Positions 25,723-38,813 of a stretch of DNA of 42,049 nucleotides are shown piece by piece; positions within the stretch are counted from its first letter, which is position 1; the number at the start of each line of letters is the position of its first letter. The stretch is taken from positions 1 to 42,049 of the forward strand of contig JAFGJB010000361.1 of assembly GCA_016929295.1 (NCBI GenBank). The letters are read 5' to 3'. The stretch comes from Candidatus Zhuqueibacterota bacterium. GTDB taxonomy: Bacteria > Zhuqueibacterota > Zhuqueibacteria > Residuimicrobiales > Krinioviventaceae. The position numbers were made by a program, and so were the translations under genes. A model generated the notes under the pieces. It ran no database searches and was not told where the DNA came from. It was given only the letters and a program-made list of their open reading frames with translations.

Positions 25723-25753
25723 AAAGGAAAAGCCTTGCGTTGCGTCGCAAGGC
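25723..25753 (-). terminator. Rho-independent terminator of the lexA transcription unit
   Basis: Minus strand GCCTTGCG-acgcaa-CGCAAGGC (8-bp perfect stem) followed by TTTTCCTTTC. Confidence 0.75.
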
Positions 25754-25828
25754 CTGTCATTCTTTCACTGCAGGCATCCCCTGTTCATCGGCTTTATGGC
25801 AGTCGCGCGCTGCGCGTCATTCTGCACA

Positions 25829-26101
25829 TCAAACAATCGACGCTTCGCAGGTCATTTGCTTTCTGATTTCATCCATTGCTTCACGGCGGCTTGCATCGTC
25901 CGCAGCGTAGTAAAGTTTGTGACAGGAATGCTGCAAGTTGTTCTGTCGTGCGGAATCTGTTCGCTGCGGTGAATGCGGCGAGGCCAGATGTGTTTGGATA
26001 TAGAGATGTTCGGTCAGGTAGTCAAAAATCTCCTGGCTTGAATTGCTGAAGGCGAGCAGAGAATCGGCCAGATTCATCGAGGCAGCCATGCTATTTTTCA
26101 T
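25829..26101 (-). CDS. Small protein of unknown function (90 aa), last gene of the lexA unit
   Basis: ATG preceded by a CCGGAG RBS-like sequence; 26 nt after the upstream ORF stop; terminator about 75 nt after its stop. Confidence 0.6.
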   Translation of the reverse strand: MKNSMAASMNLADSLLAFSNSSQEIFDYLTEHLYIQTHLASPHSPQRTDSARQNNLQHSCHKLYYAADDASRREAMDEIRKQMTCEASIV

Positions 26102-26127
26102 GTTAAACTCCGGTTTAAATTGTACAG

Positions 26128-26403
26128 TTATTGCACCTCGTGCATTGAAATATGGTCTATATTTTCAAAGAGATCGGCCTGAACAGCATTTTTTTGTGCT
26201 TTTTCCAGACGTTCCAGCTCTTCAATTCTCACATCCAGAGCGTCCAAAAGTTGCATATGGTCGCCGGAGAGCAGCTTGGTGGCAAATTCTTTTTCAATCA
26301 TCTGCAGGGTGTCGTCGAGATTCGCGGATTTGAATTTCAGCAGCTCCAGATCATTGAAATTTGCCCAATACTTTTCCCAGTCAGGCAAGGAGCGTTTAAC
26401 CAT
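26128..26403 (-). CDS. Small protein of unknown function (91 aa from internal ATG) with C-terminal QADLF motif
   Basis: ORF extends to 26445, but MVKRSLPDWEKYWANF... at 26403 has a GGAG RBS. Predicted helical, ends KNAVQADLFENIDHISMHEVQ. Confidence 0.68.
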   Translation of the reverse strand: MVKRSLPDWEKYWANFNDLELLKFKSANLDDTLQMIEKEFATKLLSGDHMQLLDALDVRIEELERLEKAQKNAVQADLFENIDHISMHEVQ

Positions 26404-26441
26404 AATGTTCTCCTTTTTCTCCTCTTGAGTGGCTGCAGAGA

Positions 26442-26861
26442 TCAAGCTGCATTCACGTAGGCCGCTATCGGGCCAGACTGAAAGTCGTCAAGGAATTCCC
26501 CCCGGACGATATCGTGAATGGCGGCAAAAATCTTCTCCTTCCATGCGAACAGCTCGGACTTCCAGTTGCTCAGCTCGAAACTGAGCAGCGTACCATGCTC
26601 ATAATGATCATAGATTTCGCAGTCAATATTGTCCCACAGCTCGTCGATCTCTTTCGACAGATCGTCATGGTGAAACTGGATATAGGCGTAAAACTCATCA
26701 TATGACATGTTGTAATTGTCATATAATTTTTCAAACGCTTCATTGACGTCATCGAGGATTTTTTCCATCAAATCAGCGGGATTTTCGAGCTCTTGTATGG
26801 CAAAAATATTGTCAGAAAGAGCGGTAAACGCATCCAATTTCGCTTGATCCTTTTTCATCAT
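26442..26861 (-). CDS. Small acidic protein of unknown function (139 aa)
   Basis: Starts 11 nt after the lexA stop with AAGGAAGGG RBS; 31 D/E versus 10 K/R by direct count. Confidence 0.72.
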   Translation of the reverse strand: MMKKDQAKLDAFTALSDNIFAIQELENPADLMEKILDDVNEAFEKLYDNYNMSYDEFYAYIQFHHDDLSKEIDELWDNIDCEIYDHYEHGTLLSFELSNWKSELFAWKEKIFAAIHDIVRGEFLDDFQSGPIAAYVNAA

Positions 26862-26872
26862 TCATCCCTTCC

Positions 26873-27493
26873 TTAAAATTTTCTCAGCAAACCGCGCACC
26901 AGACCAATGATATGAAAATTCGGATAGTCCCGCTCGACATAGATCGGCTGCATCGTCTGATTTTCCGGCTGCAGTCGCAGGCGGTCGTGTTCCTTGTAGA
27001 ATCGTTTCACCGTCGCCTCGTCATCCAGCAGAGCGATGATGATGTCGCCATTTCGACACGATTCCGCCCGTTGTACGACCAGGATGTCTCCGTCACGAAT
27101 GCCGGCATCGATCATGCTCAAGCCACGCACCCGCAGCAAAAAAGAATCGGAGTGGCCCGCCCACTCGGAATCGATGAACATGTCGCCCTCTTTCTCTTCA
27201 TAAGCCAGTTGCGGCATGCCGGCTTGAACATGCCCGAGGATCGGCAAACTGCGAATACGATCCGCGGTTAAATCGTGTGGATCGACTATCCCCAGAGATC
27301 GCGACTTTCTGTCATCCTTGATGAGATGGCCCTTGTCGCGCAGTATGGTCAACATCTTGTGAATGCCCGCTGTGGATGACTGCCCAAACATCTCTGCCAG
27401 TTCCCGAATGGTGGGCGGATAGCCATTCTGCGCCTGAAACTCGCGTATGGCATCGAGGACCTGCTGCTGCTTTGTCGTCAATTCATGTATCAT
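26873..27493 (-). CDS. lexA: LexA repressor
   Basis: N-terminal wHTH LTTKQQQVLDAIREFQAQNGYPPTIRELAEMFG; cleavage site VQAGMP; catalytic Ser in GLSMIDAGI; catalytic Lys in ATVKRFYKE. Confidence 0.97.
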   Translation of the reverse strand: MIHELTTKQQQVLDAIREFQAQNGYPPTIRELAEMFGQSSTAGIHKMLTILRDKGHLIKDDRKSRSLGIVDPHDLTADRIRSLPILGHVQAGMPQLAYEEKEGDMFIDSEWAGHSDSFLLRVRGLSMIDAGIRDGDILVVQRAESCRNGDIIIALLDDEATVKRFYKEHDRLRLQPENQTMQPIYVERDYPNFHIIGLVRGLLRKF

Positions 27494-27495
27494 AG

Positions 27496-27561
27496 GTGAA
27501 CATTTCTTTTAAATATGATCATTTGTTTACCTATATTAACAATATTATGAACATTTGTCAA
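27496..27561 (-). promoter_or_regulatory. lexA promoter with three AAATGWTCAY repeats (candidate autoregulatory operator)
   Basis: -35 TTGACA (27556-27561), 17-nt spacer, -10 TAATAT (27533-27538). Repeats on the minus strand: AAATGTTCAT (27547-27556), AAATGATCAT (27515-27524), AAATGTTCAC (27496-27505). Confidence 0.7.
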
Positions 27562-27628
27562 GTATTATTTTCATTTTTTTACAAATTATCTAACCTAGAC
27601 TATTCCTGCTGCAGCATAGCTGCAAGTC

Positions 27629-35585: not shown

Positions 35586-37599
35586 ACACTCTTATCACTG
35601 TCATGAAAGTGAGCGGCAGCACACCTGAAATCCTTCGCCGCAGCACCGGATGCTGTTCGCGATGTCCGAACCGGCTTGAATGCCACGCCGTTTCGATCAA
35701 AATATCGTCCTGTTCACAAGATGCGGGGCTACATTCAAACTCGACGGAAAACGTGCTGAACTCTGCCGTCATCGCACGCGTTCCCGCCACGACGGTGCAT
35801 GGCGCAAGATGAAAATACGCATCTATATGATGATATCCAAGGCCGGATATGCAATCTTGCACCATCCATCGATCACGTTGCTGTTCGATACGCCGACAAT
35901 GGTTGGCATGCAGACGCCGGTATCCGTCATGCGCCGCCTGAGCCACTCCCACATCCGGCAGTTCTTCAATATGCTGCAGAACGCATGTCGCCCGGCGTCC
36001 CCATTGAAACGGCGCCAGTTGCATCGACTGATCCTTCCCATCAATGGTGACGGTGTTGTGCGCGCGCGTGCCGCGATAATAGCTGCGCTCGGCGCCGGCG
36101 CCAATATATAAAAATGTTCCACTATCGATGAGAACGTTTTGGCCATGCACCGCCAAATTGATGGCCAATGCATCCGCATGCCCGTGCGCCGCCATTTTCC
36201 CGTAGCCGAGCGGGCCACAATCAAAAACCAGTTTTTGCTCGCAGGGCTTTTGTTGAGAGAATATGACATAGCCGCCATGGTCAAAATGGCGTAACCGTTG
36301 CGACGCATCGTGCGCGGATAACCGCTCATAGCGGCGAACAGCCTCTTCTCCCAGCAGCCATAATGTCGCTTCGGACAGCTGTCGAGAGTGCAGCTTGAAA
36401 TCCGGCCGCTGAAACAACGCAGCCGCCGTGCTCAATAAACAGTGACAGGAATTTTCCTCAACCTCGACGAGCCTGAGCGCCACTCCTCCGTCCTCATCGC
36501 CAATGTGGGGAATGGCGCCATCCCGGGTACACAGCGCCATATAAAAATCGGCCATTTTCTCCAGCCGCTGCACGACGCTCGCCGGCGGCGTCACCCGAGC
36601 CTGCTCGGCAGCGCCGAGGGCCAGCACGACAAAATCGAATAAATAGCGCTGATAATGGATTGTCTGCTCTTTTGCGACGCCGTCCTCATGCACCTGGGCT
36701 AACACCTCGCGAAACAGAATTCGGAAGCCGCTTTTTCGCCACTCTTCAGCCTCATCATATTCCGGGAAATAGCAGCCGGCATAAATCAGACCAAGCGCCT
36801 CACCGATCAGGTGATTGTTCGCCGATGAATATCCGGAGAGATGTCGGCTGATGAACAGTGCGTGTTGTCGAATGGCGTGCAAAATGCGCGCACACAGCGC
36901 GGAATTCAGCTGATCACTATGCTGGATAAAAAAAAGCGCCCATGTCCAGGAGACCAGTCGCAGCGCGCATTCGAGCGAGCTCGTCCAGTTCACGCCCTTT
37001 TTGTAGGGATTTTTGTCGAGCCAGTCACGCCATTGCCGACAGAGCGCTTCGGCATAGGTCGCGTCGCCGGTCAGAAAAAATGCCTTTCCAAGAGTGACAA
37101 AGTGCTGGCAGCGATTCAGCTCCCAGACATACTTGACTTCCCTGACCGTGTCGCCGGAATAGTAATTGATCCGGCGCCGATCGCTGAGCGGGATACTTTT
37201 CTGCTGCAGGGGATCATAATGCCAATCGATCGCCTCGGAGAACAGCAGCGACTGTCCGAACAGATTGAACTCACGACGCGTCGCTCGTTCAGCGGCTGCG
37301 ATGGTGCTCAACCGATGTTCGGAAAAATAGCTGTCATAAAGGCGCTTAAAGTTAGCCTCCCCGCTCCTCTGCCAGGCGAATATCTTTTTATTATAAAGAC
37401 TGAACTTTTTCTCCAGTGGTGGGACAGCGCACCCCATTCCGGAGACCAGGAGCTGCAACGATTCCGTGCCGCGCTGCTGCCGGCGCACAGTTGCAAGCTT
37501 ATCCCTGACGGCGATGAAAATTCGGTAAAAAATCTCCGGCAGATTCATGGCGCGGAGACGGATGATTTTTGCGCGCAAGCTTTTTGACATCCTCATCAT
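35578..37599 (-). CDS. Heparinase II/III family protein
   Basis: ORF extends to 37644; Met codons near 37599-37590 are plausible starts overlapping the dinB stop. NPYKKGVNWTSSLECALRLVSWTWAL, SANNHLIGEALGLIYAG, GHADALAINLAVHGQNVLIDSGTFLYIGAGAERSYYRGTRAHNTVTIDGKDQS. Confidence 0.92.
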   Translation of the reverse strand: MMRMSKSLRAKIIRLRAMNLPEIFYRIFIAVRDKLATVRRQQRGTESLQLLVSGMGCAVPPLEKKFSLYNKKIFAWQRSGEANFKRLYDSYFSEHRLSTIAAAERATRREFNLFGQSLLFSEAIDWHYDPLQQKSIPLSDRRRINYYSGDTVREVKYVWELNRCQHFVTLGKAFFLTGDATYAEALCRQWRDWLDKNPYKKGVNWTSSLECALRLVSWTWALFFIQHSDQLNSALCARILHAIRQHALFISRHLSGYSSANNHLIGEALGLIYAGCYFPEYDEAEEWRKSGFRILFREVLAQVHEDGVAKEQTIHYQRYLFDFVVLALGAAEQARVTPPASVVQRLEKMADFYMALCTRDGAIPHIGDEDGGVALRLVEVEENSCHCLLSTAAALFQRPDFKLHSRQLSEATLWLLGEEAVRRYERLSAHDASQRLRHFDHGGYVIFSQQKPCEQKLVFDCGPLGYGKMAAHGHADALAINLAVHGQNVLIDSGTFLYIGAGAERSYYRGTRAHNTVTIDGKDQSMQLAPFQWGRRATCVLQHIEELPDVGVAQAAHDGYRRLHANHCRRIEQQRDRWMVQDCISGLGYHHIDAYFHLAPCTVVAGTRAMTAEFSTFSVEFECSPASCEQDDILIETAWHSSRFGHREQHPVLRRRISGVLPLTFMTVIRVYE

Positions 37600-38813
37600 G
37601 TGCTCGGCCCCGGACTTTTTTTGTCGGGCTGTTCGCGTATCCACTGCGAATCGTGTTGATGATGAATGAGACTTGCGCGCGTGATCGCCTTCTCACCGAA
37701 CTTTTCTCTGATCTCATCCATCACGTCATCGACCTTGGCAGCAGCCGGCGCCGGCGCAAATAAATCGAGCTGTCCCTCGCCCTTTTCCAGTTGTGATACA
37801 GCCACGCCAACAAGTCGCACTTTGTCGCGCTGCAAATGCGCATAGAGCTCGCCTATATTTGCAAAAATATCATCAAAATGATTGACAAAAGTGTTCAGAG
37901 TGCGCGAACGGGTGAACGTGGTAAAATCGTGCAGCCGAATTTTCAGCGTGATGGTACGACCGCGATATTTTTGCCGCCGCATCTCCCGCGCCAGCTCGTT
38001 GCATAGATAACGCAGCGTATTGTGAATGGTCTCCTCATCATCGCTGTCCACATCAAAGGTCACTTCCTTGCTGATCGATTTTGCTTTGCCGGACGTCTCA
38101 ACGGCGCGATCGTCAATGCCATGCGCCAGACGATAAAAGTGCAAACCGGTCTGGCCAAATCTGCGATATAATTCATCCTGCGTCAAACGCGCCAGATCGC
38201 CGATGGTGTGAATGCCCAGCTGCTGCAAGCGCGGCAGCGTCTTGACGCCGACACCCCACAGTCGCGAAATGTCCAGCGGCTGCAAAAAGGCCTCCACATC
38301 AGCTTCCTCGACAATGACCAGGCCATCCGGCTTGCGCAGATCGGACGCGACCTTGGCGACAAATTTGTTCGGCGCAATGCCGATGGAGGCCGTCAGCTCA
38401 ACCTCCTGGCGAATGCGTCTCTTTATGTCGCAAGCCAGTTTTTCCGGCGTCCCGTGCAATTTGTAGCTGGTGGTGATATCCAGAAAAGCTTCGTCAATGC
38501 TGAGCTGTTCAATATCGGGAGAGTAGCTGTCGAGGAGTGACATGATCTGATGCGAGACATCTGCGTAGCGGTGGCCGCGCGGAAAGACATATATCGCATC
38601 GGGACAACGTCGATACGCCTCACTTATCGGCATTGCCGAATGAATGCCGTATCGGCGCGCCTCATAGCTGCAGGTCGAAACGACGCCGCGCCCTCGGCCG
38701 CCTTTGGGATCAGCGCCAACGACGAGCGGCTTGCCGCGATAGGCGGGACAATCGCGCTGCTCGATGGCCGCGAAAAAGGCATCCATGTCAATGTGTAAAA
38801 TGATGCGCGACAT
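37596..38813 (-). CDS. dinB: DNA polymerase IV (Y-family)
   Basis: ILHIDMDAFFAAIEQRD, YEARRYGIHSAMP, YSPDIEQLSIDEAFLDIT, TASIGIAPNKFVAKVASDLRKPDGL. Confidence 0.97.
   Translation of the reverse strand: MSRIILHIDMDAFFAAIEQRDCPAYRGKPLVVGADPKGGRGRGVVSTCSYEARRYGIHSAMPISEAYRRCPDAIYVFPRGHRYADVSHQIMSLLDSYSPDIEQLSIDEAFLDITTSYKLHGTPEKLACDIKRRIRQEVELTASIGIAPNKFVAKVASDLRKPDGLVIVEEADVEAFLQPLDISRLWGVGVKTLPRLQQLGIHTIGDLARLTQDELYRRFGQTGLHFYRLAHGIDDRAVETSGKAKSISKEVTFDVDSDDEETIHNTLRYLCNELAREMRRQKYRGRTITLKIRLHDFTTFTRSRTLNTFVNHFDDIFANIGELYAHLQRDKVRLVGVAVSQLEKGEGQLDLFAPAPAAAKVDDVMDEIREKFGEKAITRASLIHHQHDSQWIREQPDKKSPGPST

Follow-up and report, generated by a model that had tools for sequence, protein, structure and literature searches.

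A LexA2-headed operon encodes two undescribed families of small proteins, one with a putative sliding-clamp motif

Organisation of the locus

The window, by which we mean the whole 42 kb stretch of DNA analysed, corresponds to contig 130 of G000, a genome assembly of 4.3 Mb in 367 contigs. On its minus strand, a promoter is followed by a lexA gene, here called lexA2, and by three small genes, with intergenic gaps of 11, 38 and 26 nt. The unit ends at an intrinsic terminator, beyond which lies valS. Promoter, lexA, the three ORFs, their gaps and the terminator had been described in a sequence-only reading of the locus and proved exact to the base on re-reading. To that description the present analysis adds the operators, a second LexA, the QxxLF at the C-terminus of Orf2, the upstream dinB and the narrow range of orf3. 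The features are as follows.

27547..27562, minus strand: putative LexA2 operator site 1, CTTGACAAATGTTCAT, over the -35 box; 12.0 bits, second-best in the window
27533..27561, minus strand: sigma70-type promoter of lexA2, TTGACA-N17-TAATAT, with TTGACA at 27561-27556 and TAATAT at 27538-27533; read directly
27515..27530, minus strand: putative LexA2 operator site 2, GTAAACAAATGATCAT, just 3' of the -10 box; 15.7 bits, best in the window
27496..27511, minus strand: putative LexA2 operator half-site 3, TAAAAGAAATGTTCAC, beside the start codon; 9.9 bits, seventh in the window
26873..27493, minus strand: lexA2, 206 aa; Pfam PF01726 and PF00717, invariant residues, tree
26442..26861, minus strand: orf1, 139 aa, acidic helical protein with C-terminus -NAA; conservation, dN/dS, model
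26128..26403, minus strand: orf2, 91 aa from ATG, helical core and flexible tail; conservation, dN/dS, model
26167-26181, minus strand: QADLF, putative beta-clamp motif of Orf2, residues 75-79
25829..26101, minus strand: orf3, 90 aa, lineage-specific; relatives, dN/dS
25732..25753, minus strand: intrinsic terminator, 8-bp stem GCCTTGCG/CGCAAGGC; read directly
25731-25721, minus strand: T-rich tail of the terminator, TTTTCCTTTCT; read directly
37596..38813, minus strand: dinB-like DNA polymerase IV gene, clamp motif QLDLF, outside the operon

Starting at an alternative TTG, the orf2 frame would encode 105 aa.

A second LexA

LexA2 has the features expected of a LexA protein of the S24 type: the LexA DNA-binding domain (PF01726) and the S24 peptidase domain (PF00717), an A-G cleavage site, a Ser/Lys dyad and a predicted operator at its own promoter. 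All 18 LexA2 proteins of the order retain A91-G92 as cleavage site and the catalytic pair S126/K163. The genome also encodes LexA1 (contig 366), which is about 40% identical to LexA2. In a tree of 43 LexA sequences, with a midpoint root used for drawing only, the order's 18 LexA2 proteins fall into a single clade (100/99). This clade joins LexAs from f8, f12 and f13 (96/94), and the combined group is separate from LexA1 and from the LexAs of f6, f9, f10 and f11. An additional LexA is also present in several f8 and f12 genomes. No protein matching the canonical LexA DNA-binding domain was found in the two genomes of genus g3 (G003 and G009), which may have lost LexA altogether.

Operators and extent of the regulon

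Most lexA2 genes of the order are preceded by a promoter layout like that of the window, with GTGAACAnnTGTTCAC repeated near -38 and -18 relative to the start codon; several have further copies at -70 or -100. Among the sites of the window, the position of site 2 (near -38) is conserved in most relatives, that of site 3 (near -18) in many and that of site 1 (near -70) in some. No clear LexA2 site was detected upstream of lexA2 in G017, where the start codon is uncertain. When a matrix trained without the window's own genome and its same-genus relative G001 was scored over the whole 42 kb, the top two sites both fell on the lexA2 promoter. The operators of the window are degenerate, and the best score (15.7 bits) lies inside the range of the best scores of shuffled windows (mean 11.7, maximum 16.7 bits), so the case for them is made by ranking and conserved positions and not by score alone. 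Together with the retained catalytic residues, this ranking indirectly supports SOS control of the cassette.

LexA1 appears to have a different box, GGTGA-n7/8-TCACC, found before most LexA1 genes of the order and not seen for the LexA1 of G007. Elsewhere in the class, boxes vary by family: GTGAACAnnTGTTCAC occurs with LexA2 and in f13, GGGTACATTAATACCC in f8 and f12, and GGTGTACAAATGTACACC in f6.

A search of G000 for LexA2 sites with at most one mismatch returned nine candidates, each lying wholly or mostly within an open frame and none of them preceding a recognisable repair gene, and a wider LexA2 regulon was rejected on these results. Weak targets may escape such a pattern, since it misses the two-mismatch operators of the window itself. 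Across the order, seven of the 12 strict LexA2 sites are at lexA2, and nothing in these searches indicates a large regulon. LexA control of recA was likewise set aside, as neither the LexA1 nor the LexA2 box was found within 200 bp of recA.

Conservation and selection

The order lexA2-orf1-orf2 is kept across 18 of the 22 genomes of the order, in five families. LexA2 and Orf1 co-occur in the same 18 genomes, and wherever orf1 is present in the order it lies directly behind lexA2. Orf2 is found in 20 of the 22 genomes and directly follows orf1 except in G019. In that genome, a reverse-strand oxidoreductase-like gene separates the two, and no operator was found before orf2, isolating it from the LexA2 operators. 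The contig of G008 breaks off within orf1. Both genomes of genus g3 encode orf2 beside valS, without an operator, lexA2 or orf1. That G004 seems to lack lexA2 may be an artefact of a contig end, which cuts orf2 there. Neither lexA2 nor orf2 was found in G002.

The arrangement of lexA and small genes is shared by most genomes of the order; in genus g3 and G019, orf2 is uncoupled from LexA2. The earlier grouping of all three small genes into one lexA unit stands across the order for orf1 and orf2. Beyond close relatives it does not extend to orf3, whose relatives were found only in G001 and G006, so that it spans two genera (G000/G001 and G006).

In the closest same-genus pair (G000-G001), dN/dS was 0.04 for lexA2, 0.14 for orf1, 0.16 for orf2 and 0.21 for orf3, the last value coming from this one pair. 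Over the pairs with measurable dS, it ranged from 0.04 to 0.11 for lexA2, from 0.10 to 0.27 for orf1 and from 0.02 to 0.20 for orf2. Orf1 and orf2 are therefore under purifying selection. For these two genes, conservation and synteny were found in relatives and dN/dS is not near 1, and the proposal of a lexA-headed cassette of small genes of no known family is borne out by order-wide synteny and by selection. The nearest same-genus relative, a candidate division KSB1 genome, carries the cassette on contig RQOI01000045.

Outside the order, the Orf2 profile matched nine genomes of families f8, f12 and f13. In all nine, the Orf2 relative is encoded next behind a lexA gene, once with an assembly gap between the two. 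Eight of these lexA genes were included in the tree, and all eight group with LexA2. In G040, one of the f13 genomes, the Orf2 relative is followed after 18 nt by a gene for Pol IV.

In family f3, a short cysteine-rich ORF with a core of about 72 residues is encoded behind orf2 in all four genomes (L037:8638-8856, L040:2873-3091, L045:8693-8914 and L049:4220-4540). This protein had no Pfam or NCBIfam match.

Orf1 and family searches

No convincing match to Orf1, Orf2 or Orf3 was retrieved from Pfam, NCBIfam, PHROGs, PADLOC or the PDB in sequence or fold searches, in agreement with the earlier failure to recognise a family for any of them. Structure models were made for Orf1 and Orf2, and the BFVD fold search, likewise without a convincing hit, covered Orf1. 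None of the three proteins matches a polymerase family or contains an ImuB or DnaE2 domain, and the searched libraries contain no description of the Orf1 and Orf2 families. The Orf1 profile aligned with a chain named H12 (4e-5, 44 residues covered) and with PMS1 (0.003), neither of which was taken as homology. A phage or plasmid origin of Orf2 was discarded, no match to it having been found in phages or plasmids.

Orf1 of the window is acidic (pI 4.2) and helical (model pLDDT 80). Its relatives differ in charge. Residues P28 and W100 never vary, and W107 is nearly invariant. No membrane segment was found in Orf1-3, the highest 19-residue Kyte-Doolittle mean being 0.54 in the window and 1.36 among all members. 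The C-terminus is AA in eight of 17 Orf1 members, compared with five of 285 long ORFs, and in all seven Orf2 relatives of f8 and f12. The tags of local tmRNAs have ALAA or AMAA at their ends. This tmRNA-like end is enriched in Orf1 and in the f8/f12 Orf2 relatives and is not universal, as Orf1 ends in N in five f3-type genomes. Rapid turnover of Orf1 by ClpXP would be a guess.

Remote Orf1-like matches (E from 2e-8 to 3e-5) occur in family f7 away from lexA, beside a putative membrane protein gene (L165:5313-5675, L166:5320-5586 and L167:5047-5409). The one examined had no Pfam match.

The C-terminal motif of Orf2

All full-length Orf2 proteins of the order end in Q-x-[SDEN]-L-F after a variable linker. 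Across 16 aligned sequences the Q, L and F show no variation (zero entropy), while few parts of the protein vary more than the linker. The same tail is found in G003, G009 and G004 and on the second contig of G013. Among 285 long ORFs from the sampled loci, none has Q-x-x-L-F in its last 17 residues. The clamp motif of Escherichia coli Pol III alpha is QADMF, from which the QADLF of the window differs by one residue. Local Y-family polymerases (DinB and UmuC) carry QLSLF, QTNLF, QLNLF, QLDLF and similar motifs. With respect to the bacterial clamp-binding consensus QL(S/D)LF, which is found at C-termini (PMC9690074), the Orf2 tail is a relaxed match, with Q, L and F invariant and a residue other than L at position 2. 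AlphaFold predicts a helical core at about residues 9-66 with a pLDDT of about 87 and is less certain of the tail. Orf2 may bind the clamp through QxxLF. The Orf2 relatives of f8, f12 and f13 lack the motif; as they still sit behind lexA, the function of the Orf2 core may not need the clamp.

Possible roles of the cassette

Operons headed by a second LexA are known mainly as imuABC mutagenesis units. In Pseudomonas putida, LexA2 heads and controls its own operon, lexA2-imuA-imuB-imuC (dnaE2), in which ImuB has a clamp motif (PMC3901139). The cassette described here resembles it in having LexA2 at its head and a downstream product with a putative clamp motif. It differs in lacking a polymerase-like ImuB, DnaE2 and a RecA-like ImuA, in place of which the same design drives two small, unrelated proteins of new families. 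For this order, which belongs to a little-studied bacterial group (KSB1), a full-text search of open-licence papers found none on lexA. The polymerase helpers UmuD and YolD are small SOS proteins whose genes accompany that of a Y-family polymerase, and they recall the lexA-Orf2 relative-Pol IV arrangement of G040; they differ in that no sequence match was found and that direct linkage to a polymerase is seen in one genome only.

From the operon, its operators, its conservation, the selection on it and the motif, all read from sequence, we infer a private SOS cassette built like lexA2-imuABC with new effectors, in which Orf2 would act at damaged forks as an adaptor tethered to the clamp. We consider the chances of this reading to be about evenly balanced. 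LexA2 would repress only, or mainly, its own operon through the operator sites over the promoter. After DNA damage, RecA filaments would trigger its self-cleavage at A91-G92, leading to a burst of lexA2-orf1-orf2(-orf3) expression. The flexible tail of Orf2 could then dock on the sliding clamp and so place the conserved helical N-terminal domain at damaged forks, with a possible influence on polymerase exchange or translesion synthesis. Orf1 would be a co-expressed, SOS-induced protein, probably a short-lived partner or regulator. The order-wide linkage, the distinct LexA2 box, the kept catalytic residues and the invariant QxxLF argue for the adaptor, as do the predicted poor order of the Orf2 tail and the Pol IV gene beside the G040 relative. 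Against it stand position 2 of the motif, the motif-less relatives and the degenerate operators of the window.

Other roles can be envisaged for the same genes. SocAB, the clamp-targeting toxin system of Caulobacter, also includes a small protein with a clamp-binding motif, and SocB inhibits elongation while bound to the clamp through the usual motif (PMC9690074; also PMC12795458). By analogy, SOS-induced Orf2 might fill the hydrophobic pocket of the clamp and, as a checkpoint, slow replication, with Orf1 controlling or delivering it; the small protein, the two-gene unit and the damage-type repressor would suit such a module. We regard it as unlikely, since a constitutive growth inhibitor without its partner would be expected to be lost, yet Orf2 is kept without Orf1, LexA2 or an operator in genus g3 and without an operator in G019. 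No match to SocB or to an antitoxin family was found, and the cassette differs from SocAB in being LexA-headed. The retention of Orf2 favours, over a simple toxin, an adaptor that does no harm and can be of use outside LexA control, and the persistence of Orf2 where no canonical LexA was found suggests that SOS control is not essential to it.

It is distinctly unlikely that Orf1, or Orf1 with Orf2, blocks cell division and is proteolysed via its AA end. SOS division inhibitors are typically encoded beside lexA and turned over from the C-terminus (PMC6851548), which the enriched AA ends and the local tmRNA tags would fit. However, yneA, sosA, divS and chiZ are small, divergent genes next to lexA under an SOS-type operator, whereas orf1-3 lie behind lexA2 on the same strand and encode soluble proteins without the membrane segment common to Gram-positive inhibitors, and Orf1 ends in N in the f3-type genomes; an inhibitor, if any, may be of the soluble SulA-like type. 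A DinI-like feedback role on LexA2 or RecA, with Orf1 and Orf2 modulating repressor cleavage and QxxLF serving another contact, seems decidedly improbable. The small size and acidity of the proteins and their tight coupling to the LexA2 lineage, motif-less relatives included, are consistent with it, but Orf2 persists in the g3 genomes, where no canonical LexA was found, and its motif is of the same type as those of local clamp binders.

Returning to the clamp-tethered adaptor, Orf2 may be a damage-response factor of a new type that works at the replication fork. A fuller version is tentative, its chances falling somewhat short of even: taken jointly, Orf2 would be a new SOS effector family, a lexA-encoded, clamp-tethered polymerase manager whose clamp tail was gained in the order; LexA2-linked relatives outside the order would bear another, perhaps degron-like, tail; and the cassette would control fork access without a polymerase, under a LexA whose regulon is one operon. 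A clamp-binding SOS protein without a polymerase domain would, if real, bear on fork management during damage. The motif makes the hypothetical protein Orf2 directly testable for binding to DnaN and for an effect on replication or mutagenesis.

Neighbouring Y-family polymerases

About 10 kb separate lexA2 from the dinB gene, which lies upstream on the same strand. Five relatives (G003, G009, G015, G017 and G019) likewise have a Y-family gene on the contig that carries the cassette or orf2, 7-13 kb upstream of it. This linkage is only suggestive of a functional neighbour, and a Y-family polymerase such as DinB would be a plausible co-actor of Orf2.

The two g3 genomes have completeness values of 98% and 95%. 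Their S24 proteins are only UmuD-like and phage-type and adjoin an SRAP-like gene and a UmuC gene (L112, L113, L173 and L174). In the class, Y-family polymerase genes are also encoded behind LexA1 genes and behind one f13 lexA of the LexA2 type, the lexA-Pol IV neighbourhoods being L116 (G040), L169, L176, L177, L178 and L181.
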